Shown piece by piece: positions 281 through 34,090 of a stretch of DNA of 64,000 nucleotides. Positions within the stretch are counted from its first letter, which is position 1, and the number at the start of each line of letters is the position of its first letter. The notes below the pieces were generated by a model that worked only from the letters and a program-made list of their open reading frames with translations, had not been told where the DNA came from and ran no database searches. The translations under genes were made by a program, and so were the position numbers. The stretch lies in assembly GCF_028285565.1 (NCBI RefSeq), contig NZ_JANQOY010000028.1:1-64000 (forward strand), written 5' to 3'. Source of the stretch: Acaryochloris sp. IP29b_bin.148. Its GTDB lineage: Bacteria; Cyanobacteriota; Cyanobacteriia; Thermosynechococcales; Thermosynechococcaceae.

Positions 281-605
281 TGGGGGCGGAGGGACTTGAA
301 CCCTCACGACCTTACCGGTCAACGGATTTTCATTCTCCCGCTGCTTTCGCAGCTGCCAGTGTGGTTTTGAGAATTGGACTCTCCCTTTACCCGCGCTGTC
401 TAAGATAAATCTTAAGTAGCGTGAGGGTAGCTCCCGTCGAGTCTCTGCACCTTCCAAATCAGTGATGATTTGGCTTGGCTCAGGATTGCCTTGTCTGCAA
501 GATCAGATTTAGGTTTCCCTGAGTTTGAGAGCATTCACTTACAAGATTTCTCCTGTAAGGCTCAGCTTTCTAAGTCCGTAGCGTCTACCATTCCGCCACG
601 CCCCC
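281..605 (-). tRNA. tRNA-Leu(UAA), interrupted by a group I intron
   Basis: The 5' exon is 572-605 and the 3' exon 281-330 on the minus strand. The acceptor stem GGGGGCG (605-599) pairs with CGCCCCC next to discriminator A at 281. The anticodon stem ACGGA/UCCGU closes a seven-base loop CUUAAAA once the exons are joined, giving anticodon UAA. The exon boundary lies between U34 and A35, the position of the ancient cyanobacterial and plastid trnL intron. CCA is not encoded. A strong terminator follows at 227-280. Confidence 0.95.
331..571 (-). other. group I intron in tRNA-Leu(UAA)
   Basis: This 241-nt intron starts after U34 of the tRNA and ends with G at 331. The conserved core is readable: the P-like element AATCCTGAGCC, the R-type element GTGCAGAGACTCGACGG and an S-type GAGAGTCC. 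These match the catalytic core of the trnL group I intron shared by cyanobacteria and chloroplasts. There is no endonuclease gene inside; the short frames across it are chance. The small size is normal for this family. Self-splicing is expected from the family, not shown here. Confidence 0.9.
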
Positions 606-5285: not shown

Positions 5286-5759
5286 TTAGATTTCAAATAG
5301 CTGAAGATCATCCCGGTTGTAGAGTTGACGGTCCTCACCATTACGAACTAACCGTTGCCGTAGTTTGGGATAGTCACAGATATCTACAGATCGTCGTTCT
5401 CCCCCCATCAAATAGACCAAATCTTGGTCAAAGGGATTTGATAAACAATGGGGCTGGGAAGGGGCTGTAAACCCTATAAAGTCGCCTGGACCGACTTCAT
5501 ATTCCGCTTCACCAATAGCGGCAATCCCTTTGCCCGAAAGGATATAAATAAATTCTTCTTCTTGATGATGGTAGTGAAACTGGGTTGTGTCTCGACCCGG
5601 CTCTACCCTGACCAGATGAACTCCCAGCCGTTCCAGTCCCACCCAATCTCCAATAGATTTAGTGTGTCGAACTGCATTGGAATTTAAAGGATGTTGAAAA
5701 CGTTGTTCGGGCGACTCCTGGATAGCGAAAGCTTGTACTAAATGACGTGTGAGAATCAT
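5286..5759 (-). CDS. cupin-domain protein
   Basis: The 157-residue protein is a single cupin. The first motif contains HYHHQEEEFIYILSG (around residues 83-97) and the second contains PGDFIGFTAPSQPH, which together supply the usual two-His/Glu plus His metal site. The N-terminal 60 residues resemble those of sugar- or glyoxylate-type cupins, but the substrate cannot be told. It sits immediately upstream of comEC with no gap between stop and start. That suggests shared transcription rather than shared function. Confidence 0.75.
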   Translation of the reverse strand: MILTRHLVQAFAIQESPEQRFQHPLNSNAVRHTKSIGDWVGLERLGVHLVRVEPGRDTTQFHYHHQEEEFIYILSGKGIAAIGEAEYEVGPGDFIGFTAPSQPHCLSNPFDQDLVYLMGGERRSVDICDYPKLRQRLVRNGEDRQLYNRDDLQLFEI

Positions 5760-6029
5760 GGTTACACTCCTGAGTCATATGTGATGCTTCTGTCTTGGCA
5801 TGGGACGAACGCTCAACGGGTAGTGCATGCTGAAATTATTAAAGATGGGAGGTAGTCGCTTGAGCTTAAATCGAGTTCTCTCAGTGGGTAATTGCTAATC
5901 AACAGTCACTATATCTTTGTTCCGTTGCTCGAACCACACCGATTAAGGCACAGATCCAAGACCGTATCGAGCAAGCATAAGTCGGCGGCTTACAGGGGAA
6001 CAGCAAGCTATGGTAGCTACATAGCGCTT
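5760..6029. other. intergenic, left flank of accessory block
   Basis: No gene is supported. The part next to 5760 should hold the minus-strand promoter for the cupin-comEC pair. The right part grades into the IS66-like remnant. Confidence 0.4.
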
Positions 6030-6502
6030 GTACAGATGGATGAACCTACTACGCCAAACGCAGAACAGCAGCGGAAATGGATATGCTGCCAAACTTTATA
6101 GATACGAGTATTCATGATGGCTGGAAGAGCTATGCCAGTGATGATTGTGCTCATGGCTGATGCAATGCTCATCATTAGCGGGAGCAAGCCATATTGTTGA
6201 ACGCTCCCAACAGCCTTGGCCCAAGGAGATGATCGCGCTGTTGATAGACATCAAATCCAGGAAAAGGCTACGAAAGCTGAAGGCTTAACAAGCCCCAACA
6301 CAGAGCCAATCGAGACGTTGGAGCAGCATTACCATCCGCTAATAGCAGATGGATTTAAGAATGACCTAAGCCCACCGATGGATGAGCATGCACCCAAGAA
6401 AAGAGTCTCGCCGTGTTCGGGATTATATTCAACTTTGCGAAGGCCAGGCATTTTTGCACCCAAACGTATTGTTGCTCGCAATCCTATGAAACTTATGCTC
6501 TA
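6030..6502 (+). pseudogene. decayed IS66-family transposase (C-terminal part)
   Basis: Pieces of an IS66-type DDE transposase can be read in shifting plus-strand frames. Near 6080-6170 one frame gives LPNFIDTSIHDGWKSY and then a CNAHH-like block interrupted by stop codons. Near 6217-6265 another frame gives QPWPKEMIALLIDIK. Near 6300-6360 a third gives an IETLEQHYHPLIADGF-like segment, followed by a KKR stretch. These match the order of conserved blocks in IS66 transposases. In-frame stops and at least two frameshifts make it inactive. No terminal repeats were found. It marks the left side of the polysaccharide island. Confidence 0.7.
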
Positions 6503-6981
6503 GTTGGGCAGCAACTATAAAATCCAAAAAGATTGCCAAATACTACAATCGTATGATATCTTTTCAAAATATTCCCTATATCTTAATAAGATGTAAATAT
6601 TGCAAATAAAATCCAACACTAAACTCTGTTGCTTAGCATTTTTATCACCTCTGACTTGAGCTACATCTTCAAAGTAAAAAAAAGCTCTAGGATCTCTATC
6701 CTTGTGAAGGTAATAAACTTTGCCTCAAAGCCTACGAAATATTTTAAGTAACTCTGGGAAGTTCGTGCGTCGCGATTGTCTAAACCCAGTAGTTCTACAG
6801 TAGAGTGTGCAAGATATCTAAGGAATATTTTTTGGACATAAAATCTATATAAATAAGTGGTTAAATTTAAAATTTGCCCAATATCAGTAAAAGTTTTACT
6901 ATACGTATATAAAAATGGGTGCAAGTGATTCAGGTTCATGTCAACGAACCTCCAAATAACTTACCTAATATGGAAGACGCA
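6503..6981. other. AT-rich intergenic region upstream of the polysaccharide locus
   Basis: No convincing gene. A minus-strand frame at 6661-6939 could encode 92 residues but resembles nothing I recognise and has the composition expected by chance in AT-rich DNA. The promoter for the plus-strand locus should lie in the right part. Confidence 0.4.
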
Positions 6982-8151
6982 ATGGAAAATCGTAAATTGT
7001 TAATACTAGGAACCCGTGGAATTCCTGGTAATCATGGCGGCTTTGAAACATTTGCTGAGCGCTTAGCTATCTATTTAAAGTCTGCTGGCTGGCAAGTTTG
7101 TGTCTATTGCCAGAGTGATGAAAAAACAATACTAACAAGAGAATGGAATGGCATTGAACTGATTGATATTCCCGTCTCACGAGAGGGAGCCTTGGGGTCT
7201 ATTATTTTTGATCTCAAGGCAACTCTGCATGCGCTCAAAAATCCTGGCATTATCCTTTTATTAGGCTATAACACTGCTGTTTTCTCGATTTTGTGGTTTA
7301 TAAAAAAGCGTGTTGTGATCACCAATATGGATGGTATGGAATGGTGGCGCCGTAAATGGACCTTACTGCAAAAGATCTGGCTGTTCCTAAATGAGCGGTG
7401 CGCATGTTGGTTCAGCACACATCTGATTGCAGATCATCCTGGAATTAGGATGAATTTTCTGGAACAGGGTGTCTCTTCAGATAAAATCACATGCGTTCCA
7501 TATTGTAGCGAGCTTGTACCGAGTGCTGATCCGCGCCACCTTGAAAGGTATGGTTTAAAGCCCAACCAATATGCAATCATCATTGCCCGTCCAGAGCCAG
7601 AAAATTCCATTCTAGAAGTTGTTGCGGCTTTTGCTGAAAAGCCGAGAGGATATAAGCTAGTAGTCCTTGGTAAGTACTTACCCAAGAACAATGCTTATCA
7701 TAAAGAGGTTTTGGCTGTAGCTAGTCAAAGTACCGAAGTTCTTTTCCTGGGCGCTATTTATGATACTGAGGTTGTTCAAGCGTTGAGGTATCATGCCCGC
7801 CTGTATATTCATGGTCATACCGTGGGAGGAACGAATCCGTCTCTAGTTGAAGCACTAGCCGCCGGTATGCCAGTCTTGGGACACTATAATCGTTTCAATT
7901 ATTGGGTTGCGGGTTCAGAAGCTGAATACTTCTACGAGCAAAAAGACTGTTCACTTCAGCTAAGCCAGATTCTAGGGAATGATCAGCGACTTCGTGCGAT
8001 GAGACAGTCTAGCTTTGAACGTTATCAGAAGCTATTTTCAAACAATCGAGACGTCAAGGCATACGAGGAACTTTTCCTCTCTTATGTTGATTCTTACACT
8101 TTGGATGTTTCTGTCTCCCAGTCTAAACGAGAAGTAGTTGCCCAACGCTAA
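6982..8151 (+). CDS. glycosyltransferase with DUF1972-type N-terminus
   Basis: The protein begins ENRKLLILGTRGIPGNHGGF. The RGIPGNHGGFETF block is typical of DUF1972 glycosyltransferases such as capsule rhamnosyltransferases. The GT-B acceptor-side and donor-side lobes follow, with GGTNPSLVEALAAGMPV at about residue 290 as the donor-site region. It should add a sugar to a lipid-linked intermediate on the cytoplasmic side. The ATG at 6982 is chosen because GGAAGA lies four to five bases upstream; an ATG at 6970 and a GTG at 6919 are in frame. It is first in the plus-strand polysaccharide series. Confidence 0.82.
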   Translation: MENRKLLILGTRGIPGNHGGFETFAERLAIYLKSAGWQVCVYCQSDEKTILTREWNGIELIDIPVSREGALGSIIFDLKATLHALKNPGIILLLGYNTAVFSILWFIKKRVVITNMDGMEWWRRKWTLLQKIWLFLNERCACWFSTHLIADHPGIRMNFLEQGVSSDKITCVPYCSELVPSADPRHLERYGLKPNQYAIIIARPEPENSILEVVAAFAEKPRGYKLVVLGKYLPKNNAYHKEVLAVASQSTEVLFLGAIYDTEVVQALRYHARLYIHGHTVGGTNPSLVEALAAGMPVLGHYNRFNYWVAGSEAEYFYEQKDCSLQLSQILGNDQRLRAMRQSSFERYQKLFSNNRDVKAYEELFLSYVDSYTLDVSVSQSKREVVAQR

Positions 8152-8421
8152 CCACCCAAAGCAGATGGGGTCTCCTGTAGACAACTTAAATCTGGGCCAT
8201 TTTAATCAATCATTCTCAAACTAATGTAGTCATAACTGTAGTCCGTAAAATTTTTAGAACTTGTGAGTACAAGTAGGCAGAAGTATAGAACTTCTCTTTA
8301 CTGAGCCTCTTCAAAAAATTAATCGAACCATAAATTAGGCGCTATGCCTTGCGACAATTGTTAGCACCAGTACATATGTAACCTTTTTAAAAAACTTCAA
8401 TTAATCTTAGGATCCTCTTTC

Positions 8422-9882
8422 ATGCAAGACCATTCACCCTATTCACCTATCAGCCCATCTGCATATCAGAGGACTCATCCTAATATTAGTTATCGTTGGC
8501 TGGGCATTGTCCTAAATGGAATGGTTTGGAGTTGTGTGTTTCTTTACCTGAAGCTATCACCCCCCATCTACAGTAGTCAGGTAGGCGTGATAGTTGTAGG
8601 TGGCGATTCGAAGATCGATGTTGCCCTCCCCGGTGGGGTTAGGGCAGCAACCTCTCCCGCTAGCGGACAATCTAACTCATTTGAAGATCCTAGAACAATC
8701 TACACACATATTGCTACCAATCCCGCAGTATTGGATAAGGCTGCTCAGCAATTGGGAATGGATTCTGCCGAATTTGGTGAACCTGAAATTACGGTGGATG
8801 AAGAGAGCGCCATTCTTTCCTTTGCAATTCAAGGAAAGACACCACTGATATCACAGCGAAAACTATATGCACTTTTCACTGCAATTGATCAACGTCTTCA
8901 AAAGCTTCGAGAATTTACGTTGGCACAACGTGAAGGTGAAAAGCAACTAACACTAAGCGCTGCTCGTCGGAAAGAAGAAAAAGCACGCAGTACGTTATCT
9001 AAGTATCAATCTGCCTCTGCTTACAATTCTGATCAGCAACTTCAAGAGCTATCAACAACCATTGAGCAACTGCGTCGTGTGCGTTCTGAAAACTACGCCA
9101 AAGCTAAAGGCTTAGGTGGCCGCCTTGCTCGCTTAGATCGTGAGGTAGAACTTAACACACAGACTGCTACAGACCGCTATAGGCTTGAAGGGGATCCAGT
9201 TTATCAGAAGTTACTGAGTGAATATGGACGTCTCAAAGCAGAACTAACCCAGATTTCTGCTCTACTATCTCCTCAGCATCCGCAAGTTCAGGATGTACAA
9301 GAGCAATTGAATGCAGCTAGCTCGGCTCTGCAAAGCCAAGGCTCATCTGCTTTGGGTAAACAACTGCAGACGTCTGCACTACTTCAACTAACTCCCCTCA
9401 ACGCTGACCCTCAGACCAGCGTCGTTCGGGGTGAACTATTCAAAGACTCTGTTTCAGGTTTAGCGGATCGAGACGAGTTAATTTTTCAGGATCGGGTTTT
9501 GGCCAAGGAAATTGCTCGTATGGAGGCTCGCTTAAATACCTTGTCAGGGGAAAAACATAAGGTAGATGGACTACGGCGAGATCTACAGGTTGCTGAAACG
9601 CTTCTTGCCTCAACTCTGACAAAACTAGATCGCAGTAGAATCGAAGTCTACGCCATGTATCCACCCATACAAATGGTCACAGAGCCCACACTTCCTGACG
9701 AAGATGCCCCTATATCACCGAATAAGCAAATGGCTTTTCTGACAGGTCTTGCTGGTTCATTCATCGTAACACTGGGTCTCGTCCTAATCTGGTACGAAAA
9801 GCGAGATCCATCACCGTCTTTAGCAAGATTAGAACAGGAAACACTCAAGAATCGAGAAGAGTTGGAGCGCCTTCACTCATAG
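8422..9882 (+). CDS. polysaccharide chain-length determinant (Wzz/GNVR type)
   Basis: The 486-residue protein has a membrane segment near residues 25-45, a long periplasmic region rich in coiled coil (about 150-400), a proline-rich PPIQMVTEPTLPDEDAPISP block before the second membrane segment near 440-460, and a short charged tail. This is the layout of polysaccharide co-polymerases that set chain length with Wzy. There is no C-terminal tyrosine-kinase domain, so it is not a Wzc-type fusion. A 270-bp AT-rich gap precedes it and may carry a promoter. Confidence 0.82.
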   Translation: MQDHSPYSPISPSAYQRTHPNISYRWLGIVLNGMVWSCVFLYLKLSPPIYSSQVGVIVVGGDSKIDVALPGGVRAATSPASGQSNSFEDPRTIYTHIATNPAVLDKAAQQLGMDSAEFGEPEITVDEESAILSFAIQGKTPLISQRKLYALFTAIDQRLQKLREFTLAQREGEKQLTLSAARRKEEKARSTLSKYQSASAYNSDQQLQELSTTIEQLRRVRSENYAKAKGLGGRLARLDREVELNTQTATDRYRLEGDPVYQKLLSEYGRLKAELTQISALLSPQHPQVQDVQEQLNAASSALQSQGSSALGKQLQTSALLQLTPLNADPQTSVVRGELFKDSVSGLADRDELIFQDRVLAKEIARMEARLNTLSGEKHKVDGLRRDLQVAETLLASTLTKLDRSRIEVYAMYPPIQMVTEPTLPDEDAPISPNKQMAFLTGLAGSFIVTLGLVLIWYEKRDPSPSLARLEQETLKNREELERLHS

Positions 9883-9913
9883 GTAGACATGATATTAGAT
9901 CGCCATAGACCGA

Positions 9914-11230
9914 ATGCAGCATCTATTTAAAAAGGCAGGTGGAACCTTTAGTCTCAGAATTGCTTCAATGTTTTTTGCCTTTGTCATGGGCGTTATACAT
10001 GCCCGCTTGATGGGCAGCACTGGCTCTGGGATTTATGATTATTCAACTTCATGGGTATATCTTTTAGCTATCCCTGCGTCGTTGGGATTCAATGGTTTGC
10101 TGGGCCGGGAGATTGCTCTATATCAAACAGAAGCAGAATGGGAAAAACTTGTTGGCCTGAAAAGGTGGGCTAGCCTACTGACATTAATCATCTCTGTCGG
10201 ATTAGCACTCGTAGCTGGAACGATTGCCTGGCATACAATCCAAGATGAAACTTCTCAGTTAACTTGGGCATTTTGGATGGCAATGGTTTCATTGCCCTTC
10301 CTAAGCTTGAGAATGATCTACAGAGCGATGATGCGGGGACTTGACAAGATCGTTGTTGGGTTGATGCCTGAAATGATATGGGCGCCTTTTGTACAACTCA
10401 CTGTTGTGGTCTTTATTGTAGTTGGTATACAAAATGAACTGACAGCTAGCTCGGCTGTGATTGCGTTTAGTCTTTCCACTGGCTTGAGTTTAATAATCAG
10501 TATTCTGACAGCATCTAGATTCCTTCCTGAAAAGGTCAAAGCGGCAAAGCCCAGTTATGAACGCTTAACTTGGCTCAAGTGTGCTGTCCCCTTTATGCTC
10601 CTTGAGAGTCTCAATGAAATTAATAGTCGGGTAGATATCCTAATGATTGGTAATCTTGATAGCGTCAGTGCTGCAGGAATTTATAATCCGGTCAATCGTG
10701 GCTCACTATTAATTACGTTTGTGCTAATGGCGTTTAAGGGACCGTTGTCGCCGACTATTACTACTTTGTTTGCCAAGGGAGAGTTGCAGGAGTTACAACG
10801 TATATTAACAAAAACAGCTCGTGTGGTTGTAGTGTTTTCTGGTTTGGCAACGATCTCTTTTTTGATCTTTGGAAATCAGTATTTAAAAATATATGGTTCC
10901 GAATTTACAAAAGGGCTTGGAGCATTAAATATTCGTTGCCTTGGTTTATTTGTATACGCTGTGGTAGCCGGGCATTCCTCGACAGTTTTAAGTATGACTG
11001 GATATGCTCGATTTACTGCAATCAGCAGTATCTTAGCGACAGGAATGAATATTGTACTAAATATGCTTCTAATCCCAATATATGGCATCAATGGTGCTGC
11101 AATAGCGACAACAACTTCTCTTTTAGTATCTGGTGCAATTAATGCTAATCAGGTGCATAAAACTGTGGGTTTGCGGCCCACAATTTTGAGAGACATAATG
11201 AAACTTAGAGATGTCTTTCATTTTAAATAA
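9914..11230 (+). CDS. Wzx-like lipid-linked oligosaccharide flippase
   Basis: The 438-residue protein is almost entirely hydrophobic, with about twelve membrane segments. It opens with KKAGGTFSLRIASMFFAFVMG, the usual start of polysaccharide-type MATE/MVF-superfamily flippases. A YNPVNRGS-type loop lies between the two halves. Its expected job is to flip undecaprenyl-diphosphate-linked repeat units to the periplasmic face. It follows the chain-length gene by 31 bp and precedes a sulfotransferase by 52 bp, which suggests one transcription unit. Confidence 0.85.
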   Translation: MQHLFKKAGGTFSLRIASMFFAFVMGVIHARLMGSTGSGIYDYSTSWVYLLAIPASLGFNGLLGREIALYQTEAEWEKLVGLKRWASLLTLIISVGLALVAGTIAWHTIQDETSQLTWAFWMAMVSLPFLSLRMIYRAMMRGLDKIVVGLMPEMIWAPFVQLTVVVFIVVGIQNELTASSAVIAFSLSTGLSLIISILTASRFLPEKVKAAKPSYERLTWLKCAVPFMLLESLNEINSRVDILMIGNLDSVSAAGIYNPVNRGSLLITFVLMAFKGPLSPTITTLFAKGELQELQRILTKTARVVVVFSGLATISFLIFGNQYLKIYGSEFTKGLGALNIRCLGLFVYAVVAGHSSTVLSMTGYARFTAISSILATGMNIVLNMLLIPIYGINGAAIATTTSLLVSGAINANQVHKTVGLRPTILRDIMKLRDVFHFK

Positions 11231-11282
11231 AGAAAATAGATGAATACGCTAGAATCAGCTGCTAAAAAATGAGAGTCAAATA

Positions 11283-12263
11283 ATGAAAAAGAATCAATAT
11301 TTAATTATTGGTGGCACAACGAAAGCTGCAACTACCTCTTTATTTCATTACTTGGCTGATCACCCAGAAGTGACAGTAACAAGCATTAAAGAGACCCGTT
11401 TTTTTATTGATCAAGACTATCCATTGATGCCTCCCGTTGACACTGGTTGGTGGGAAGGTGCCGATAAATTCGAAGCATTTTTCCCGAATAATGATCCATG
11501 TTTAAGGGTAGATGTAACACCTGACTATTTATATTCGGCAGGTACACCTTTGCGATTGAAATCGTTGTTACCAAATGTCAAAATTGCTTTTATTTTACGA
11601 GATCCAATAACACGTGTTGTCTCTTGGTATAAGTATGCAAAGCAGATAAATTGTCTACCTAGTTCGATGACGTTTAGAGAATATATTGACAAACAAATGG
11701 CCGGGGGACATTTTGAGCAGGCCAAGCAAGATAGAAGAAACGGATTACATATTCCTTCGCCTGAATATTTTTTAAGTGCGTTAGAACATGGACATTACTC
11801 AAAGTATCTTCAATCTTATATAGATGCTGTTGGACCTGATAATGTGAAGGTTTATTTCTATGAGGAACTTTGTGCTGAACCAATAAAAATTTTGCACGAC
11901 CTTTGTGATTTCGCTGCTATTACATCTAGCTTTTATGATAGCTATGATTTTCAAATTTTCAACCGCAGTATTTCTATAAAGAATGCCCGGTTAAACCATC
12001 TTTATTCAAAATTTCGTTACCATGTTCGACGGTATACTCATAATTTGCCAATTCATCAAGTTTTTCGTCAGATGCGTCTGTGGTTTGATCCAATTTACTA
12101 TCGATTAAATGGTAAAGCTGACGAAAAAGTTGAAATAAACTCCGATCTCCGTGCAAAGTTAGAAGCATATTATGAGTATGAAATTATTGCTTTAGAAAAA
12201 ATATTAGGCCGTTCAGTGCCTTGGTCAATTAAACCTCAAATAAACAAAAGTATGGGCAAATGA
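11283..12263 (+). CDS. sulfotransferase (PAPS-dependent, Sulfotransfer_1 type)
   Basis: The 326-residue cytoplasmic protein starts with IIGGTTKAATTSLFHYL, the 5'-phosphosulfate-binding loop, with Lys14 at the expected place. The 3'-phosphate-binding motif is FILRDPITRVVSWY, with Arg106 and Ser114. A KETRFF block follows the first loop, as in heparan-sulfate-type enzymes. It should transfer sulfate from PAPS to a sugar hydroxyl or amine. Its position between flippase and polymerase genes points to sulfation of the exported polysaccharide. Codon use is clearly AT-rich. Confidence 0.85.
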   Translation: MKKNQYLIIGGTTKAATTSLFHYLADHPEVTVTSIKETRFFIDQDYPLMPPVDTGWWEGADKFEAFFPNNDPCLRVDVTPDYLYSAGTPLRLKSLLPNVKIAFILRDPITRVVSWYKYAKQINCLPSSMTFREYIDKQMAGGHFEQAKQDRRNGLHIPSPEYFLSALEHGHYSKYLQSYIDAVGPDNVKVYFYEELCAEPIKILHDLCDFAAITSSFYDSYDFQIFNRSISIKNARLNHLYSKFRYHVRRYTHNLPIHQVFRQMRLWFDPIYYRLNGKADEKVEINSDLRAKLEAYYEYEIIALEKILGRSVPWSIKPQINKSMGK

Positions 12264-12307
12264 AAACATAGCTCATCTTTATGCATATATCTATTTTAAA
12301 TGACTAA

Positions 12308-13798
12308 ATGCTAATTCCTAAACCTAGCCAAGTTTGCCGTAATATCACTAATTTCTATGTTGCCGCTGTTCAAAAGGAAGAAATTCCTTTTCTGATAGTA
12401 TTTGTGATCGCAATGTACACTCCATTTGAGCTATTTGCCTTGAAATGGTTACCTAGTGCCATTTCAGGCCCTTTGCGGTTTCTTCCAGAAGTTATCCTTT
12501 ATGGACTAACTGCAAAAGTACTAGGTAAACGTTTATTCCAAAACCATCATCTACAAGCCACACCAATAGATATCTTGCTACCATTTTTTTTCTTGTCAAC
12601 TTTTATCTCAATTGCTATTAATGGTAGTGATTTAATACCTTCTATTGATAATTTACGTTCTTTATGGAGATATTTATCAGTTTACTATATAGTTGTGAAT
12701 ATCAATATCTCTTTGGAGCAACTAAATTTGATGCTTAAGGGCATCAAATTTGTGGGATTGCTTCAAGCTGTCCTAGCTTTTTTTCAATACTTACTACCGG
12801 TAGGGTTTCAGCAATTTTTTGCACCTGGTGACTTCCAAGTCGGCGACTATGAGAGAGTGTCACAGGCAGAGGCAGGGAAAGTTAAATCTGGTGCAGTATT
12901 TGGCATGTTTACTAATCCCTCAGTATTGGCTGCTTTTTTATTATTTGTTATTGCGATCACAACCAGCCATATTTATATTGCCTCTCCAGGCTGGACAAAC
13001 ATAGTAAAGCTTAGAGAATACTCTAGTTGGGCCTTACTTGTTTTTGGTGTCTTTGCATCTAAAAAAAGAGCCCCTCTAGTTATGGTTTTCTTAATTCCTT
13101 TAATATTTTTGTTCTTCCACAATAGAATTCGGAGATTACTCAAGATAGGGTGGTTATATGCTGCAATTCTATTTCTAGTTGTTTTAGGTGTCCTCTTACT
13201 GGGTACTTCAGTAGATACCTCTTTTACATCACAAGATGAAGCTAAAGGCTCCATCAATCTTGCGTCTTATCTCTTTCAGATTTTTTCGCCAGAGTACTAT
13301 GAACACTCAGCAGAAAGCTCGCGAGGTTGGGTCATCCAAACAACAATATCTACGTTGCTAAAATCTGGAAGTTGGTTTGGTTTTGGACCAGATTTAGAAA
13401 ATATGAGAAATATTATGTTCGACCTGCTAACTAGTGCTTCAGATCGGTCAAAAATATTCGATCTTCAACCTTTAGAAGATGTTTATTGGTTAGCTATGCT
13501 TGCTTATTTTGGGCCAATTGGATTGGGAATTTATAGTCTTATCCTTTGGCGATTGTTTCGGATTGGAAGATGGCTAACATTATCTTCACCTCTAGAAAAT
13601 TACCGACTTTTAGGATCCTTATTCTGTACGCTCATTGTTGTTACTATACTTTATAATTTTGTCTCTCGGACACTTGAGTTTAGACCCTATAGCTTTTATT
13701 TTTGGCTTACTTCTGGACTTGTAGTTAATGTTTATAATCGTCACGGAAATGGTCAATCATTGAACTCTTTTGACTGTCCCATGCTTACTCGCGAGTAA
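12308..13798 (+). CDS. O-antigen ligase/polymerase-like membrane protein (Wzy type)
   Basis: The 496-residue protein has around ten to twelve membrane segments and one large periplasmic loop between about residues 310 and 395. The loop contains SSRGWVIQTT and FGFGPDLEN, the arrangement seen in the O-antigen ligase/Wzy family (RGW and GxGP-like motifs). With the flippase and chain-length protein it completes a Wzx/Wzy export set. Whether it polymerises or ligates cannot be told from sequence, but polymerase fits the neighbours better. Confidence 0.8.
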   Translation: MLIPKPSQVCRNITNFYVAAVQKEEIPFLIVFVIAMYTPFELFALKWLPSAISGPLRFLPEVILYGLTAKVLGKRLFQNHHLQATPIDILLPFFFLSTFISIAINGSDLIPSIDNLRSLWRYLSVYYIVVNINISLEQLNLMLKGIKFVGLLQAVLAFFQYLLPVGFQQFFAPGDFQVGDYERVSQAEAGKVKSGAVFGMFTNPSVLAAFLLFVIAITTSHIYIASPGWTNIVKLREYSSWALLVFGVFASKKRAPLVMVFLIPLIFLFFHNRIRRLLKIGWLYAAILFLVVLGVLLLGTSVDTSFTSQDEAKGSINLASYLFQIFSPEYYEHSAESSRGWVIQTTISTLLKSGSWFGFGPDLENMRNIMFDLLTSASDRSKIFDLQPLEDVYWLAMLAYFGPIGLGIYSLILWRLFRIGRWLTLSSPLENYRLLGSLFCTLIVVTILYNFVSRTLEFRPYSFYFWLTSGLVVNVYNRHGNGQSLNSFDCPMLTRE

Positions 13799-13877
13799 CA
13801 TTTTATGGGAATATGAAAAATCAAACAACAGAAGATTCAGTTCTTTGTCTTTGATTTAGACTAGATCGAGATAATAT

Positions 13878-15452
13878 ATGCGTCTAAAACATAAAAAAAA
13901 CAAATATTTATTGATGCTTGTAGTAGCTTGCACTGCAGGTGCGATCGGTTTTCGTTATTCAGAAAAGCTTCTTTCTGGATCTTCAAAAGCTCAAATTTCG
14001 AATCAATTTATTACAGCTTCATTGTCCTCAGAAAAACGATCTATCCCTCCAGGATTGATGTGTTTTAATGTGAATGCGATTCGGGTTAAACAATGGGACA
14101 GTGTGCAATTTACTGATGCAACTAAATCTCTTTCTCCCAGTGTTCTACGTCTGCCTGGAGGTCAAGGCGCTAACTATTGGGATTGGCAACGTGGAGGACT
14201 CAGTCAGAGCTTTCAAGGTTTACCAGATGGTGTTCCGTTTTTTTTGAAAGGTGCTAGAGATCGTAGATATACCGCTGGAAGCTTGGAAAATTTTTATACT
14301 TTTTCTAAGGCAACCGATACTACACCTCTGTTTGTTTTGAATATGCTGAGTTCTACCCTAGAATCTCAAGTGAGTATGCTAAAACAAGCGGAATCCCTTG
14401 GTCTACCTATTGAAAAAATTGAACTCGGTAATGAATTCTACTTTGGAACAAGAAACAATCGAGCTGTATTTCCATCACCTGTAGATTACGCGAAGACATC
14501 CATCCAGTGGATTGCAAAGATCAAATCAGAATTTCCCAAAGCAAGAATTAGTGTGATGGGAGTCTCAGATAGTGGTCGGATTCGCCATCGACTTGAAAAA
14601 CGGCGCTTGAATTGGAACCGAATGGTATTTCCAATTGTATTAGATAACGCTGATGCAGTCACTTTGCACGTTTACCCGGATCACGGGCTTACCCCAGCCA
14701 GAACATCTGCTTCATATGACTATCCTTTTTTTGATGAACAAGACACGCCAACTATCTTGGGTGAACCTTTTAGGCATTGGAACATTATTAAGAAGACTGA
14801 TGGTTTTAGTACTTTGCCAAGTGACAAAAAAATTTGGATAACAGAGTACAACATGCATGAAAGACTGCGACAACGCAAGGTTCGTCAAACGCGTGTTACA
14901 GGAAGCTGGGCGCATGGATTGTTCAACCTAGTTCTGGGGCTGCTATTTTTAGAAGACCCGCGTGTGGAAAAAATTTGTAACCATATGCTGGTCGGCAACT
15001 CACAATTCTCGGCTATTTATGATGGGAATAAGAGCTTTTTTAACCCTTCTAAACCATCAATTCCAACAATACCCTTTGACTTATCAGCAACGGGCGTTGC
15101 CTTACAACCATGGGGAGAAATTTTGAAGAAATCTAATGAAGCTAGGCAGGTGAAATTTACCAATGTTCCTATGCTCATAGGTAAGCAACAATTTCAATAT
15201 CCAGCTTTATACGGTTGGTCTTTTGCTAATCAACAAAAGAAACAAGAGGCTGTCGTCGTAAATTTATCGAAACAACCTTTGGAAGTTGATTTAAGCTCAA
15301 TTTTTCCTTCAGGTATTACCTATAAGCAAATTGAAGGACATCCGCGAACATTAGTGACTAAAACCACTTCACTCCAGGAGGTAGAGGGGTATGCGTCTCA
15401 ATTACTTTCTTTCCCTCCCTACTCTGTTTCACATTTGAAGTCTAGAGAGTAA
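13878..15452 (+). CDS. membrane-anchored glycoside-hydrolase-like protein
   Basis: The 524-residue protein has a basic N-terminus and one hydrophobic segment (about residues 9-26), so it is probably anchored or secreted. The body looks like a (beta/alpha)8 barrel of clan GH-A: ELGNEF places a candidate acid/base Glu at 186, and WITEYN places a candidate nucleophile Glu at 323. RLPGGQGANYWDW near residue 91 and a C-terminal beta-rich region resemble arabinofuranosidase-type families. The exact family is uncertain. In this locus it may trim or release the exopolysaccharide outside the cytoplasm. Confidence 0.65.
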   Translation: MRLKHKKNKYLLMLVVACTAGAIGFRYSEKLLSGSSKAQISNQFITASLSSEKRSIPPGLMCFNVNAIRVKQWDSVQFTDATKSLSPSVLRLPGGQGANYWDWQRGGLSQSFQGLPDGVPFFLKGARDRRYTAGSLENFYTFSKATDTTPLFVLNMLSSTLESQVSMLKQAESLGLPIEKIELGNEFYFGTRNNRAVFPSPVDYAKTSIQWIAKIKSEFPKARISVMGVSDSGRIRHRLEKRRLNWNRMVFPIVLDNADAVTLHVYPDHGLTPARTSASYDYPFFDEQDTPTILGEPFRHWNIIKKTDGFSTLPSDKKIWITEYNMHERLRQRKVRQTRVTGSWAHGLFNLVLGLLFLEDPRVEKICNHMLVGNSQFSAIYDGNKSFFNPSKPSIPTIPFDLSATGVALQPWGEILKKSNEARQVKFTNVPMLIGKQQFQYPALYGWSFANQQKKQEAVVVNLSKQPLEVDLSSIFPSGITYKQIEGHPRTLVTKTTSLQEVEGYASQLLSFPPYSVSHLKSRE

Positions 15453-15704
15453 ATACTCAGCGGCCTAAATTCTGTGAAGCTGTTACAGGTTCCTTAAATT
15501 ACACTTTCATTATTGAGTTATGTGATTTTTCTGGCAATCACTATCTATTAAAAAGTTTCTGCTAGATTGCAAAACTCTGACTTACATTAGTTTTTAATCT
15601 TAATAGTAGAAATAGTTTATCTAGCACTAAAATATTTTTATTCCTTCTTTATTGAGATTTGTTTTAGATGGCTAGTACTAACATTGTTGTTTATATCATC
15701 AGAT
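15453..15704. other. AT-rich gap within the polysaccharide locus
   Basis: A 250-bp gap separates the hydrolase-like gene from the second sulfotransferase. No gene is visible. Very AT-rich sequence near 15590-15660 may hold an internal promoter. Confidence 0.35.
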
Positions 15705-16703
15705 ATGGTTGCTCAGCTTGATTCACTTTACCTCCGTACTAGTCCTCGAAGAGCATTGATACGGCTTTTAAGTTATACCTTTTTTGAAGGTCGTCCTCTT
15801 ACTACAAAAGGTCGATGGATTAATCCATTGGTATTTGCATTTTTCGACTTTCAGAAACATCTTCCAAAATTGAAAACAGTCAAGAAGCCAATCTTTATTA
15901 TTGGAACTGGCCGGAGTGGGACGACAATTTTAGGTACGCTTCTCTCTATGCACAAAGAGGTGGGGTTTTTAAATGAACCCAAAGCGCTTTGGCACTCTAT
16001 CTATGAACAAGAGGATTTAGCAGGAAGCTACAGTCGTGGTAAAGCTGAATATCGCCTAACTGAAAATAGTGCTACTGAAGAAGTTAAATTAGCTGCTCAA
16101 AAGCTTTTTGGTGCATATTTAACTATTTCTGGTTCAAAAAGGGTTGTTGATAAATATCCAGAGCTAGTTTTCCGCATACCATTTGTGCGAGCACTATTCC
16201 CAGATGCAAAGTTTATCTTCTTAATTCGCAATGGCTGGGATACTTGCCAGTCTATTGAAGGATGGTCGAATCGGCTGGGGATTGAAGTAGATGCGGAAGT
16301 ACATGACTGGTGGGGAGTTGATCAGCGCAAGTGGAAGTTGCTGTGGGAGCAAATTATCCGTATCGATGATGATTACCGAAACCTCCATTTAGAGCGAGAG
16401 CAATTAGAGAACCCATTGGATATGGCCACTTTAGAATGGATTGTAACAATGCGGGAAGGCTTACATTATATGACTCAGATTCCCCATGGTATTCATCTGT
16501 TGCGCTATGAGGACTTAGTCTCTCAGCCGCAACACACTTTAAAACATCTTTTGGAGTTTTGTGAATTATCGCCAGATTCAAGATTCCTTGAGTTTGCGCT
16601 GAAAAAATTATCTCCAGTGCCCGCTAGAGCTACTTATACAATGCATCCATCGCTGCAACCTTATTTTCATGAAACCATGAATGCATTAGGGTATACACCA
16701 TAA
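15705..16703 (+). CDS. sulfotransferase (second, Sulfotransfer_3-like)
   Basis: From the ATG at 15705 the protein has 332 residues. The PAPS loop IIGTGRSGTT is at about 65-74 and the 3'-phosphate motif LIRNGWDTCQS places Arg175 and Ser183. It is distinct from the sulfotransferase at 11283: it has Arg-Ser in the loop, a 60-residue N-terminal extension and NEPKALWH after the loop. An in-frame TTG at 15684 is possible but less likely. Two unlike sulfotransferases in one locus suggest sulfation at two positions or on two sugars. Confidence 0.83.
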   Translation: MVAQLDSLYLRTSPRRALIRLLSYTFFEGRPLTTKGRWINPLVFAFFDFQKHLPKLKTVKKPIFIIGTGRSGTTILGTLLSMHKEVGFLNEPKALWHSIYEQEDLAGSYSRGKAEYRLTENSATEEVKLAAQKLFGAYLTISGSKRVVDKYPELVFRIPFVRALFPDAKFIFLIRNGWDTCQSIEGWSNRLGIEVDAEVHDWWGVDQRKWKLLWEQIIRIDDDYRNLHLEREQLENPLDMATLEWIVTMREGLHYMTQIPHGIHLLRYEDLVSQPQHTLKHLLEFCELSPDSRFLEFALKKLSPVPARATYTMHPSLQPYFHETMNALGYTP

Positions 16704-16787
16704 GATGCTAGTGGTATTACCTACATATTTGAACCTAGCGGATAGTGCTTTGAACACGAATAATGTAAAGCTGACAATCATCGAATA

Positions 16788-18026
16788 ATGTCTAGACTTC
16801 TGTCACTAAATACCTATCACTATCGAAGAGGTGGGTCTGATGTTGTGTTTTTCGAGCATGCCCATATGTTCGAAGAGCGTGGGTGGTCAACCGCAATGTT
16901 TACGATGCATCATCCTCGTAATATTGATTCACCCTGGTCACAATATTTTTGCGAAGAATTAGAATTTGGCCATCAATATGGACTCAAGGACACCCTGCTA
17001 CGAGCAGGTCGTGTTATTTATTCTTTAGATGCTAAGCAGCAAATAGAACGCCTAATAGCTGACTTTAAACCTGATGTTGCCCATGCCCACTGCATTTATC
17101 ATCATCTTTCCCCTTCTGTATTGGTGGCTCTCAAGGAGCATCATGTGCCAACGGTGATGACAGCACATGATCTCAAGTTGGCCTGTCCGGCCTACAAAAT
17201 GCTCAACCGTCAAGGGATCTGTGAGAAGTGCAAGTCTGGCAATCTCTTGCATCTTCCACTCAACCGTTGTATTCGCGATTCCTTAGGCGCAAGCATGTTA
17301 GTGATGTTGGAATCTGCCATTCATAAGTCGTTGGGCTTATACAAACGCTACTTAGATCAGGTAATCACACCTAGCAAGTTTTTCCGATCAAAGCTGATCG
17401 AATGGGGTTGGTCTTCAACACAACTGGCGTATGTTCCTAATTTTATTGACTGTCGTGACTATACGCTGTCTCCAGATTTTAGAAATCACGTTCTCTACTT
17501 TGGACGGCTAGCACCCGAAAAAGGTGTTGATACGTTAATTCGAGCAGCTCATCGTACGGGCATTGAACTGGAGATTGTGGGAACAGGACCAGAGGAAGTG
17601 GCTCTTAAAGCAATGCCCGAGTCACAGTCCCCTCTTATCAAGTTTTTGGGCCGGTTAGAAGGGGATGCTTTAAAAGCTGCGATTCACCGTGCCCGTGCAG
17701 TTGTTTTGCCGTCTCGGTGGTATGAGAATGCGCCGATGAGCATATTGGAAGCTTATGCCAGTGGTCGAATTGTTATTGGTGCCAACATTGGCGGTATTCC
17801 AGAATTGATTTGTATCAATGAGACAGGATACTTGTTCGATGTTGATGATATTGAAGGATTGGCTACAGTGCTAGAGAAGGTTTGTGCTATGGAGGATCGA
17901 ACTCTATTGGCTATGGGCAAACAGGCACGGCAATGGGTTTCTGAGAACTTTAATCGAGATCAGTATGCTCGTGAAATGATAAAACTTTATGCATCATTAG
18001 GGGTCCGAGGGGTAAATCAGATCTAA
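16788..18026 (+). CDS. glycosyltransferase family 4 (GT-B)
   Basis: The 412-residue protein begins RLLSLNTYHYRRGGSDVVF; the glycine-rich RRGGSD turn is typical of GT4 enzymes. The C-terminal half has YFGRLAPEKGVDTLIRAA and WYENAPMSILEAYASG, the latter carrying the donor-phosphate-binding Glu region. A CPAYKMLNRQGICEKCKSG block in the middle contains three cysteines and is seen in a subset of capsule GT4 proteins. It is the last plus-strand gene of the polysaccharide locus, 84 bp after the sulfotransferase. Confidence 0.85.
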   Translation: MSRLLSLNTYHYRRGGSDVVFFEHAHMFEERGWSTAMFTMHHPRNIDSPWSQYFCEELEFGHQYGLKDTLLRAGRVIYSLDAKQQIERLIADFKPDVAHAHCIYHHLSPSVLVALKEHHVPTVMTAHDLKLACPAYKMLNRQGICEKCKSGNLLHLPLNRCIRDSLGASMLVMLESAIHKSLGLYKRYLDQVITPSKFFRSKLIEWGWSSTQLAYVPNFIDCRDYTLSPDFRNHVLYFGRLAPEKGVDTLIRAAHRTGIELEIVGTGPEEVALKAMPESQSPLIKFLGRLEGDALKAAIHRARAVVLPSRWYENAPMSILEAYASGRIVIGANIGGIPELICINETGYLFDVDDIEGLATVLEKVCAMEDRTLLAMGKQARQWVSENFNRDQYAREMIKLYASLGVRGVNQI

Positions 18027-18222
18027 ATTTACCTAAATTTTAGAAGGCTAATCAGTAGGACTGTTTCAAGTTGTCGAGAGTAAAACTGAATCCAATATTC
18101 TGGTATATCTAGCATTTTTGCTTCTCACGGACTTCCAATTCCTTCGAATTGCCTCTAGCGAACTTAAAACAGCCCTATGCTGAACAGATCCCCAAGAAAA
18201 TTTAGAGCTGTCTTAGAGATTG

Positions 18223-19662
18223 TTAATTTAACTTGCTAAGAGTGTCTCCTTCTTGAGGTGACAGTTTTACAACCAATGATCTCAAGTGGCCTCTAATCAC
18301 AGAAAAGCATAAGGTTAATACAAACTGTAATGATATAAGCACTCGAATATCTTTCTCGACAATAGCTATACTGGCAATAAGAATCACAAATATGAGATGC
18401 CTAATGAGAGGCTGAGATATCGCTTTGCGGTCCCCACCAGCACGATAAATAGAATAACTAAACCAACGACTAAGTGCTCGAGCGACTATGAAGAAAGCAC
18501 CATAGAAATTGATCGAAAGGAATAATGATGGACCAACTAAACGAGCTATTTGCAAGGCAGGAGAGATAGCAACTCTGTAGAGAGAAGATGAATAAGTATA
18601 CGCTCTAAAAATCAATCTAAGAATAATCAGGAAGATCATCCAAGTGATAAATTCAATAAGTAATTCATAGCTAAATAGGTTATGAGCTTCATAAGGCTTG
18701 AATGCTAGTATTAGCAAGCCTGACAAGGCTAACATAGCTGCCCATATCCAAGCATAAACTTCAAATGGTGAATTCTGTTTTTTCTTTATATACTCTATTT
18801 TATCTGCATTGTTATGCTTTGATTCATATCTAAGTTCGTATAAATCATTTTCGAAATAACAGGCTTCGTAAATACACCAAAACGATAATAGAACCAATAA
18901 AATTGAAATAAATAGTTGAATACTGATAGGATTAGAAAAGCCGTAAGCAACCAAGATAAAAGGGTAGTCTTCAAGAAGAACCACATTAAGTAAATGGTTG
19001 GTATTTCCTCGCTTAGATTTGTGCGTATAAGCGAAAGGAATATATATATTTTGACCAGCGCTCAGCTGTTTTGCTTTTGGATGTTCATAGAAGATAAATT
19101 CATTGACAATATTTTTTAAGTCTTTGTCCTCTAAGTTATCTGATATAAAGGTTGACTTCTGTAATTCATCGTAAGTCAACAGCTTTTGCAAGTAGACTTG
19201 CTTCCCAGTAGCTCTAATCCCATTCTGCGTGGTTAATATTTGGGAAGACAAGATAACATCTACCTGAATATTCATTTGGGTCAATAGAGGCTGAATGATG
19301 AAATCAAAGCCATTACTTGCAATGATGACTTTCTTCCATATTTTAGACTCTAGTATTTTGACAATATCTGAGTTGAGATATTCCGCTACAAGATTTACAG
19401 CTCGTTGTTTATAGAAAAAGTATGACCAAGGAAAGAGAATAGAAATGCAAATAACATGTATTGCATTACGATAAACAGTTCTTTTATTTTCACCAGGGAA
19501 TAAATTCCAAACTTTAAACCAGTCAAGCAAGGCTAAAATGAGTGCAACTAATGTTCTGGGCTTGGCAGAATTTAGATACTCTTCCGTAGAATTAGATAGG
19601 AATAAAGTATGATCAAAATCTAAGATTAAAATTTCGTTTTCTGCGCGAATTTCCATAAACAC
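18223..19662 (-). CDS. HAD phosphatase-like domain fused to a UbiA-like membrane domain
   Basis: The first 200 residues form a haloacid-dehalogenase-like domain: DFDHTLF gives the nucleophile pair Asp15/Asp17, IIASNG gives motif II, and SDNLEDKDL resembles the acidic motif. Residues 230-479 are hydrophobic, with about seven membrane segments. YEACYFENDLYELRYE after the first of these resembles the first Asp-rich motif of UbiA prenyltransferases. HAD-UbiA fusions are known in polyprenyl-linked sugar metabolism, so a lipid-carrier role is plausible but inferred. The gene converges on the polysaccharide locus and is strongly AT-rich. Confidence 0.62.
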   Translation of the reverse strand: MFMEIRAENEILILDFDHTLFLSNSTEEYLNSAKPRTLVALILALLDWFKVWNLFPGENKRTVYRNAIHVICISILFPWSYFFYKQRAVNLVAEYLNSDIVKILESKIWKKVIIASNGFDFIIQPLLTQMNIQVDVILSSQILTTQNGIRATGKQVYLQKLLTYDELQKSTFISDNLEDKDLKNIVNEFIFYEHPKAKQLSAGQNIYIPFAYTHKSKRGNTNHLLNVVLLEDYPFILVAYGFSNPISIQLFISILLVLLSFWCIYEACYFENDLYELRYESKHNNADKIEYIKKKQNSPFEVYAWIWAAMLALSGLLILAFKPYEAHNLFSYELLIEFITWMIFLIILRLIFRAYTYSSSLYRVAISPALQIARLVGPSLFLSINFYGAFFIVARALSRWFSYSIYRAGGDRKAISQPLIRHLIFVILIASIAIVEKDIRVLISLQFVLTLCFSVIRGHLRSLVVKLSPQEGDTLSKLN

Positions 19663-20471
19663 AGTCTAAACAAGCAAGAGAATATATAGCGACTCAAGTT
19701 ACAGCAAGAACAAGTTATAGAAAGGTCAGAAAAGATGCTTTTGCTTGCATTCAGTACTGAGGCCTTCTAATTTATCAGCGGTGAGAGACAATGCTACTGA
19801 GCACCGTTCGAAACACACCTGAGATGTTCTGCTGAAATAGCAGTTTGACTATCTAGCGCTATCTGATTGCTATCAATAGTTACCTAACAATCATATACAT
19901 GATGCCAGCAGCTTAATGGATGGCAAATCATTGATTCGGGGAAATTGGTAGTTGCCGGTCATAATACTGAGATGTATTGATATTGATCGGTGGGCTTGAA
20001 TTAACCTTAAGTCTCTTGACTGACACTTTTAGGCTAAATGAATGGTTCAACTATGTTGACTTGCTCGTCATAGAGAATCTCTTCGCCTTTGTCTGCAACC
20101 TGCATGACTCGGGCTTGGATAGTGACCAATCGCCGCCTCATTTTTCAGTTCAAGTTGAGTTATGGGATTCAACAGTCAATCGTAACTTGCACAAATAATA
20201 TGCATTACGTGCTGTGAGCCAATTTATACAGGGTGTAGCGCTTTCGCGTTAATGTTCACCAGTCTAGGGAGGAGCACTCTTTATTTTATACCAAAAAAAC
20301 TTAGTTTACACAGTATTGATTTTGACTTGACAACTGTTGCTTTTCATTGGGGTAGAGTAAACCCATTGTAAAGCCTTTAAAACTCAGATTAGCCAAATTA
20401 ACCTAAAAAACTTTATAGATAATATTTTGTCAGTGTCAGTGGTGAGAAGCGCAGGACATTAACAAGGCTGA
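19663..20471. other. 800-bp intergenic region, right flank of accessory block
   Basis: No gene can be supported. A plus-strand frame at 19977-20198 starts with TTG and resembles nothing known to me. A 35-codon minus-strand frame (about 20033-20140) is also unsupported. The region probably holds the promoters of the HAD-UbiA gene (minus) and of the membrane protein at 20472 (plus). Confidence 0.4.
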
Positions 20472-21074
20472 ATGCTAGTTTTATCGTTTATTCATTGGTT
20501 GGTCATCCTCAGCGCCCTTATTAGTGCAGCGGGAGCCTTCGCTTATATTCGCGATACGCTCGCAGGTCGGACGAAGCCTAATCGGGTATCTTGGTCCATG
20601 TGGGCGTTACCACCGCTCATTAGTACAGGGGCGGCCTTATCAGCGGGCGCAGATCCATGGGCCACCCTGCGCATCTTTATTGCAGGCTTGCTGCCACTGC
20701 TGATCTTCTTAGCGTCATTCGCCAACCAACAAAGCTACTGGAAAATGGGGGCGTTTGATCTAACCTGTGGTGCTTTTTCACTGCTGGCTGTGATTCTAGT
20801 TGCGATCGCATCTCCACAGCTTGCCATTCTCTGTGCCATCGTTGGGGACATCTTTGCGTCTTTCCCCACCCTGATTAAAACCTGGAAATATCCAGAAACA
20901 GAAACAGGAGCCATGTACATTGCCAGCTTCTTGAGCGTGGTGCTAGTGCTGCCCTCAATCCCGGAATGGAACATTGCTAATGCTGGGTTTCAGCTCCATT
21001 TATTGGCCATGAGTTCGCTCCTGCTCTTTGCCGTCTATCGTCAACGCTTTCAAATTCACCATCGTTGGAGATAA
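20472..21074 (+). CDS. conserved membrane protein of unknown function
   Basis: The 200-residue protein has about seven hydrophobic segments in two similar halves. One half carries RTKPNRVSWSMWALPP and the other ASFPTLIKTWKYPETE. Internal duplication with a proline-containing turn is reminiscent of PQ-loop or SemiSWEET-type transporters, but I cannot assign the family firmly. GC content is back to the level of the core genome, and it carries a HIP1 site at 20802. Confidence 0.7.
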   Translation: MLVLSFIHWLVILSALISAAGAFAYIRDTLAGRTKPNRVSWSMWALPPLISTGAALSAGADPWATLRIFIAGLLPLLIFLASFANQQSYWKMGAFDLTCGAFSLLAVILVAIASPQLAILCAIVGDIFASFPTLIKTWKYPETETGAMYIASFLSVVLVLPSIPEWNIANAGFQLHLLAMSSLLLFAVYRQRFQIHHRWR

Positions 21075-32803: not shown

Positions 32804-34081
32804 ATGCTAACACGCCGCACCACCTTTAGGCTTTACCCCACACCTGCTCAAGAGCGACAGCTTTTTGAATGGCGTCGGTTGCATGCCTACTTGTACAATG
32901 CGGCATTGGCAGAGCGGCGTGACATGTATAAGCGCTGGGGGATTAGCGTTGATTATTTCGCTCAACAAAACTGTTTGCCTGCGTTTAAGAAGCAGTGGCC
33001 TGAATTCAAAGCATTAGGGTCTCATGCATTGCAAGCCACTCTAAAGCGGGTAGACATGGCCTTTCAAGGTTTTTTTAAAGAGCTTAGAGGGCATCCCAGG
33101 TTCAAGTCTTTTCGTCATTATTCGGGTTGGACTTACCCTTGTAAACAAAGTTGGAAGGCACAGACAGACGGCAAACATGGGCACCTGAAGCTCACAAATC
33201 TGGGAACGATCAGGATGAGAGGTCAGGTTAGGACCTGGGGGGAGCCAACCACTTGCACTATTGTGTATCGGCAGGGTAAATGGTATGCCTCGATTACTGT
33301 CAAATGTGTTCCCGTTCGTTCAACTCAACCAGGGGCTGTGGGCATTGACTTGGGCTGCAAGGAAGCGATCACCTTATCGACGGGTGAGCAGATCCCTAAG
33401 CCAGAGTTCATTGCTGCGGGAGAGCGGTTGGTTAAGCGCCTATCAAAAGCGTTACGGCGTAAGCGCTCTCCTAATCGTAAGGCAGGAATTAAACCTTCTA
33501 AACGATGGATTGCTGCCCAACGCCGTAAATCAAAAGCACAGCAAAAAGTCACACGCCAAAGACACGATTGGCTGCATCAAATCACCAGCAAGATAGTGAG
33601 CAGTAATAGCCTAATTGCAGGAGAGCAGTTAAATGTGTCTGGCATGACTCGCAAATCTAAGAGAGGCAGGCGCAAGAAACAGAAGGCTGGGCTTAATCGG
33701 TCTATCCTTTCTGTGGGATTTGCAACTATCGGTAGCCTGTTGGCTTATAAGTCGGCTGAGGCGGGAGGATTTTATTTGGAGTCCCCCACTCGCACACTCA
33801 AGCCCACTCAACGCTGTGCAAAGTGCTGGGAGTTGACGCCTAAGACGCTCAGCGACCGGGTACATCAATGCTCTAATCCAAAGTGTGGACATATTGAGGA
33901 TAGAGATGTTAATGCGGCTCAGGTTAATCTGATTTGGGCCAGGGGGCAGGAATTGACCTCTTTAGACGCGGAGTCGCCAAGCTCTACTGACTGCGGAAGC
34001 ATGAGGCAACTTGGGGCGAAGAAGCGTGCAAAATCTCAAACTAAGCAGGACGGAAACCCCGTTCCTCTTAGGGCGGGGTAG
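32804..34081 (+). CDS. tnpB: TnpB RNA-guided nuclease of an IS605 element
   Basis: The 425-residue protein has the N-terminal helix-turn-helix region (FRLYPTPAQERQLFEWRRL), the RuvC-like core with Asp182 in GIDLGCKEA, Glu274 in GEQLNVSG and Asp368 in EDRDVNAA, and a CxxC...CxxxxC zinc finger between the last two. All catalytic residues are present. TnpB proteins are programmable DNA nucleases guided by an RNA from the element's right end, and help retain the element after excision. The last codons overlap the right-end hairpin. Confidence 0.93.
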   Translation: MLTRRTTFRLYPTPAQERQLFEWRRLHAYLYNAALAERRDMYKRWGISVDYFAQQNCLPAFKKQWPEFKALGSHALQATLKRVDMAFQGFFKELRGHPRFKSFRHYSGWTYPCKQSWKAQTDGKHGHLKLTNLGTIRMRGQVRTWGEPTTCTIVYRQGKWYASITVKCVPVRSTQPGAVGIDLGCKEAITLSTGEQIPKPEFIAAGERLVKRLSKALRRKRSPNRKAGIKPSKRWIAAQRRKSKAQQKVTRQRHDWLHQITSKIVSSNSLIAGEQLNVSGMTRKSKRGRRKKQKAGLNRSILSVGFATIGSLLAYKSAEAGGFYLESPTRTLKPTQRCAKCWELTPKTLSDRVHQCSNPKCGHIEDRDVNAAQVNLIWARGQELTSLDAESPSSTDCGSMRQLGAKKRAKSQTKQDGNPVPLRAG

Positions 34082-34090
34082 TTCATTCAC
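33950..34090 (+). ncRNA. predicted omega/reRNA scaffold of TnpB
   Basis: TnpB guide RNAs derive from the 3' end of tnpB and the right end of the element, with the guide read from flanking DNA. Here the 3' end of tnpB contains the right-end hairpin at 34056-34079. The scaffold would end at the element boundary near 34090, and the guide would begin with TCGTCCCTGCTGAGGC from the disrupted gene. The 5' limit is a guess; this is by analogy only. Confidence 0.4.

Follow-up and report, generated by a model that had tools for sequence, protein, structure and literature searches.

Gene content of the block

The window analysed here covers the opening 64 kb of a contig of 78 kb, part of a 5.07-Mb draft genome. 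Between positions 6982 and 18026 it carries a row of plus-strand genes in the order GT1, PCP, Wzx, ST1, Wzy, GH, ST2, GT2. GT1 (6982-8151) is a Cps2T-like glycosyltransferase of the DUF1972/GT4 type (PF09314, E 1e-17; NF046071 was matched under its cut-off). Its reading frame opens at 6919, and the likely start is 6970 or 6982. Identity to GT1 homologues was 63-65% for G014, a genome of another genus, and 56-59% for Pleurocapsales. Both the flippase and the co-polymerase of a Wzx/Wzy locus were found. The Wzx flippase (9914-11230) matched PF01943 (E 1e-16) and has homologues in the exopolysaccharide (EPS) loci L046, L066 and L112. PCP (8422-9882), a polysaccharide co-polymerase without a kinase domain, was recognized by a weak match to the chain-length model TIGR03007, by two terminal transmembrane segments as its only ones (residues 27-45 and 438-456) and by homologues of 37-40% identity in EPS loci. 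The Wzy polymerase (12308-13798) matched PF04932 under the cut-off (E 8e-6). It has at least eight hydrophobic segments, is 45% identical to the Wzy of Phormidesmis and is homologous to the wzy products of other EPS loci with similar gene order.

Sulfotransferases within the cluster, the mark of a sulfated EPS locus of the xss type, are represented by ST1 (11283-12263; PF00685, E 1e-11; motifs GGTTKAATTSL and RDPITRVVS) and ST2 (15705-16703; PF13469, E 6e-27). The reading frame of ST2 opens at 15684, and its homologues, found with 55-66% identity in five other cyanobacteria, begin at codon 15705. GT2 (16788-18026; PF00534, E 1.5e-27) is a GT4 glycosyltransferase. The original prediction had named a flippase, a Wzy-like and a chain-length protein, two glycosyltransferases and two sulfotransferases on one strand. 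Pfam/NCBIfam models, homology and topology bore out these assignments, but the prediction had overlooked GH (13878-15452), and the last gene of the block is on the minus strand.

The locus had also been called complete, which did not hold. It contains no priming glycosyltransferase, all five PF02397 genes of the genome being on other contigs, and no OPX exporter, the single PF02563 gene of the genome likewise lying on another contig. Since only two glycosyltransferases are encoded inside the locus, the repeat unit must be very short or made with other genes too. Regulators resembling XssS, XssR or XssQ were not seen in the ORF list of the block. Elsewhere in the genome (contig C242), a lone sulfotransferase-like gene of 32% G+C (L101:10570-11496) has in its vicinity a PglD-like gene and one for a small priming transferase of the PglC type (7602-8222).

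The last gene (18223-19662, minus strand) codes for a protein with a HAD-IB phosphatase-like domain (PF12710, E 1e-5; DxD motif) and, in the same chain, a membrane domain with 7-8 helices. It was considered as a UbiA-type prenyltransferase, but Pfam gave no UbiA match up to E 10, and a fold search matched the HAD half only. Of 28 further genomes in the family, only G014 and the congener G003 have close relatives (57-58%). These are also the two of the 28 that carry ST2, a coincidence of 1 in 378 if the genes are independent. The homologues in G003 and G014 are unlinked to ST2, and homologues in other genomes are not beside recognisable EPS genes. A link of this gene to the EPS locus is doubtful, and the gene was left outside the locus proper.

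At the left edge of the block, a decayed IS66-type transposase remnant (6005-6184, plus strand) gave a weak PF03050 match (E 0.006) with four internal stops, in agreement with the prediction that the block starts at such an element. It is the best IS66 match of the genome in a frame-tolerant genome search; when its fragments were scanned directly against Pfam, nothing matched. Other features were noted elsewhere in the window. A 6S RNA gene (16-198) adjoins a tRNA-Leu(UAA) gene with a 241-base group I intron (281-605, minus strand). At 32804-35509 a TnpB-like ORF (by eye) lies next to another glycosyltransferase-like gene that is AT-rich (G+C 0.405) and may be a further sugar gene gained by transfer. 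On the minus strand at 40557-49082 is a row of genes that, by eye, encode an HlyD-like adaptor, an ABC transporter of the peptidase type, a PpiC-like isomerase and a large protein with repeats; the row resembles a type I secretion system for an adhesin-like protein.

The glycoside hydrolase and its pairing with Wzy

GH matched no Pfam or NCBIfam model, that of GH51 included, and is unclassified with respect to these models. Its N-terminus contains LLMLVVAC with the lipobox-like VVAC at residues 15-18, suggesting that the protein is probably an exported lipoprotein. When a GH profile was compared with the PDB, GH51 arabinofuranosidases were matched (E 1e-6). The AlphaFold model (pTM 0.83) had its best Foldseek matches among GH51/GH79 structures (E 7e-24, TM 0.65, 10-16% identity). 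Two putative catalytic glutamates, E186 (in GNE) and E323 (in TE), are kept in seven homologues. In the family of 82 homologues, from which a tree was built with FastTree, E186 is present in 82/82 and E323 in 81/82 members. E186 lies inside one of the search patterns, so that its conservation is partly by construction, while E323 lies outside them. The predicted catalytic pair (GNE/TE) on a modelled barrel of the GH-A type places GH in clan GH-A, but not in GH51 in the sense of the Pfam/NCBIfam models.

The wzy gene was found upstream of gh, in the same direction, in 11 loci, ten of them cyanobacterial and one gammaproteobacterial: the window, G294, Phormidesmis, seven Pleurocapsales and the gammaproteobacterial locus L115. 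One ORF separates the two genes in Phormidesmis; in the gammaproteobacterium they overlap by 4 bases (wzy ends at 8809, gh starts at 8806). Sulfotransferase genes lie near several of the 11 loci. The accompanying genes vary: the set is pcp-wzx-wzy-gh in Phormidesmis and wzy-gh in Pleurocapsales, some of which also have st1, while G014 has gt1-pcp-wzx-wzy-st2. In G014, ST2 is followed by a gene for an exported protein that has a lectin-type domain and looks GH5-like by eye (L046:15474-17015), and in the congener G003 by one for a different exported protein (L062:564-1733); where this GH is lacking, ST2 loci may have exported hydrolases of other kinds. A search of open-licence papers brought up none on a Wzy-GH pairing in sulfated EPS loci of cyanobacteria.

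Sulfur-related genes also occur around distant members of the family. Several sulfotransferase genes surround gh in Parafilimonas and on an uncultured Bacteroidetes contig, and gh has sulfatase genes around it in Polaribacter, Kordia, Winogradskyella, Carboxylicivirga and others. In all, the 109 proteins scanned as neighbours of distant, non-cyanobacterial gh genes included 17 sulfatases and 6 sulfotransferases, which are raw counts with no background rate. Sulfatases are common in the polysaccharide-degradation regions of marine Bacteroidetes, so the link between GH and sulfatases may be indirect. Many relatives (actinobacteria, acidithiobacilli) have neither a sulfatase nor a sulfotransferase neighbour, and the annotated relative on a Rhodococcus plasmid is labelled a hypothetical protein. 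With sulfotransferases beside gh in makers and sulfatases in likely eaters, the most economical interpretation is a family whose targets are sulfated glycans in makers and eaters alike. In the producers, we infer from sequence that GH would cut a sulfated glycan and thereby trim or release it. As a tentative extension, GH might found a new clan GH-A family for sulfated glycans, coupled to Wzy for nascent-chain processing in producers and to sulfatases for digestion in marine Bacteroidetes. If that were true, makers and eaters of bacterial sulfated slimes would have one hydrolase family in common.

Base composition and origin of the block

The window contains 29 HIP1 sites (GCGATCGC), where 0.73 are expected by chance, but none at 4638-20802. 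The gap predicted between about 4.64 and 20.80 kb is therefore real. It is the largest of the 30 gaps in the window (P = 0.006 under even site placement). For background, overlapping 14.7-kb windows were taken from the rest of the 64-kb window and from 21 other stretches of the same genome; 0/137 were free of HIP1 (minimum 3 sites, mean 7.3). The block proved more AT-rich than its flanks, as predicted: its G+C of 0.399 (40.0%) is below that of every sampled background window (mean 0.489, SD 0.008, minimum 0.448), genome G+C being about 48%. GC3 was 0.27-0.40 for the block genes and about 0.45-0.57 for most neighbours.

The HIP1 octamer is itself rich in G+C. When the site rate was scaled to the composition of the block, the expected number fell from 6.3 to 2.5, and finding none then had a P of about 0.08. 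Low G+C and the HIP1 gap are thus largely one signal, and the absence of sites mostly follows from AT-richness; the lesson is that the two should be counted nearer to one signal than to two. Islands of Synechococcus have been found by a low number of HIP1 sites together with unusual codon usage (PMC3025956). The proposed check of G+C and codon bias came out divided here: G+C deviated, but in synonymous codon choice the mean log-likelihood per codon ranged from -1.13 to -1.34 for block genes and from -1.02 to -1.31 for neighbours. As these ranges overlap, codon usage is not clearly alien, and it adds little to the island call for this block. AT-richness is also found in comparable loci. Another EPS locus of the same genome (contig C131) has a G+C of 0.40, and the related locus in G014 has 0.42 in a 0.49 background with zero HIP1 sites; the Phormidesmis locus has five. 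AT-richness is largely a feature of this gene class. The block thus has the deviating composition and HIP1 scarcity of a genomic island, but as signals for transfer these are confounded by gene class.

Evidence independent of composition came from the distribution of the genes. In the six other genomes of the genus, two of which are 92-98% complete, wzx was absent at E 1e-10 save for a 24% match in one, and gh was absent from all six. Among 390 genomes of the class, source genome included, ST2 was found in 5 and GH in 7. The congener G003 has an ST2 66% identical and a homoserine dehydrogenase 88% identical to those of the source genome. ST2 is equally close (65-66%) to that of G014 and to that of G095, a genome of another family whose homoserine dehydrogenase is only 65% identical. 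That ST2 is no closer to the congener than to other genera and families, despite the 88% identity of the homoserine dehydrogenases, supports transfer; support values in the st2 tree were weak (0.57-0.79). Nearest partners among the compared loci differed from gene to gene, Phormidesmis for wzy, pcp and wzx and G014 for gt1.

Comparison with related genomes, which had been proposed as a check, was informative for gene content but not for the site itself. The cupin-comEC pair on one flank and the gene at 20472 on the other each lie in other surroundings in the congeners, and with both flanks rearranged no empty site could be read. Terminal repeats of at least 16 bases between the block edges were not found. 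A 14-base direct repeat (AAACTTTATAGATA) occurs near both edges, at 6091-6104 and 20408-20421, probably by chance. A plasmid origin of the locus was rejected: GH had a single remote match, 25% identical, on a Rhodococcus plasmid, and Wzy had none.

The same data could be read as an old resident block lost in most relatives, whose low G+C and HIP1 gap reflect a class of membrane and surface-sugar genes. The AT-richness of the other EPS loci, the indistinct codon usage and the ST2 homologue in G003 agree with such a history, which we nevertheless consider rather unlikely given the absence of wzx and gh from congeners, the ST2 of G003 being no closer than those of other genera and families, and the IS66 remnant at the edge. 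The patchy distribution of wzx, gh and st2, the divergence of ST2, the gene-specific partners, the rearranged flanks and the IS66 remnant together suggest that the locus was probably acquired and is probably mosaic, and that the block has probably moved between cyanobacteria more than once. The original idea of an acquired island is therefore partly supported, by gene distribution, ST2 divergence, the rearranged flanks and the IS66 remnant. The lack of a readable empty site, the AT-richness shared with other EPS loci and the dependence of the HIP1 gap on composition speak against a simple, recent island.

Proposed working of the locus and comparison with known systems

Sulfated exopolysaccharides play a part in cyanobacterial mats and blooms, but to our knowledge only a small number of the loci that make them are well described. 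We read 6982-18026 as a partial, mosaic Wzx/Wzy-dependent sulfated-exopolysaccharide locus, probably moved repeatedly, whose GH cuts the same polymer (probability about 0.68). Directly observed were the protein families, the gene order, the catalytic pair and fold of GH, its pairing with Wzy, the sulfotransferase and sulfatase neighbours and the absence from congeners; beyond these we infer the substrate, cellular place and role of GH. A repeat unit would be started on lipid by a priming transferase encoded elsewhere, and GT1 and GT2, perhaps with others, would add sugars to the lipid-linked unit. ST1 and ST2 would put sulfate from PAPS on it in the cytoplasm. Wzx would then flip the unit, Wzy would polymerise the units under chain-length control by PCP, and an OPX protein encoded elsewhere would export the polymer. 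Outside the cytoplasm, GH, probably lipid-anchored, may cut this polymer for clearing, length control or release. The product is probably sulfated, judging from the sulfotransferases, though the acceptor of ST1 and ST2 could instead be a lipid or a small glycan.

Wzy matches an O-antigen ligase/polymerase family weakly, the block has no OPX gene and PCP has no kinase domain, all of which would suit a product that stays bound to the cell, such as a sulfated O-chain of lipopolysaccharide, its chain made by Wzy and PCP and attached by an unlinked ligase, instead of a free exopolysaccharide. We find this doubtful, as one OPX gene is present in the genome and the synechan locus, too, keeps its OPX gene elsewhere (PMC8205485). 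It is about as doubtful that the GH-like protein, rather than hydrolysing the polymer of the locus, catalyses transglycosylation, has an accessory role or has glycans of foreign origin as its substrate. Loci without recognisable EPS or sulfatase genes harbour 44/82 of the family members, distant relatives that would fit such a function; on the other hand both catalytic glutamates are conserved, and the pairing with Wzy is direct and conserved. With GH as a hydrolase of the locus polymer, which is the reading we prefer, the enzyme would be a candidate tool to cut bacterial sulfated polymers. The conserved Wzy-GH pair is a handle for spotting sulfated-EPS loci in raw genomes.

Among known enzymes, the GH51 alpha-L-arabinofuranosidases and GH79 beta-glucuronidases have in common with GH the clan GH-A fold, two catalytic glutamates and an extra beta domain, but identity in the structural alignments is 10-16%, and GH falls outside all Pfam/NCBIfam models. 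PslG of Pseudomonas aeruginosa, a glycoside hydrolase that also has two catalytic glutamates, is encoded by the operon that makes its own polysaccharide substrate (PMC6813494), as proposed here for GH. PslG is associated with the inner membrane, and its activity was needed for full Psl production in one study, while another group found otherwise (PMC6813494). It differs from GH in that the profile and fold matches of GH are GH51/GH79, PslG not being among them, and in that the polymer of GH is probably sulfated.

The xss (synechan) cluster of Synechocystis PCC 6803 resembles the locus in its Wzx/Wzy proteins, two sulfotransferases, PCP and an OPX gene located elsewhere, and is accessory as well, being plasmid-borne (PMC8205485). 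It encodes eight glycosyltransferases, including the priming enzyme XssP, and the regulators XssS/R/Q (PMC8205485), whereas the locus has two glycosyltransferases, no priming enzyme and no regulator seen but does contain a GH gene; the text of the xss paper mentions no glycoside hydrolase (PMC8205485). Other counterparts are the sulfotransferase-bearing clusters of other cyanobacteria, incomplete Wzx/Wzy clusters called 'more or less partial' by Maeda et al. 2021 (PMC8205485), to which the locus adds the Wzy-GH pair, GH going unmentioned there. In itself this is an unremarkable accessory EPS locus whose kind is already known; it groups with these partial sulfotransferase-bearing clusters, and the unclassified GH with its conserved Wzy pairing is the added point of interest.
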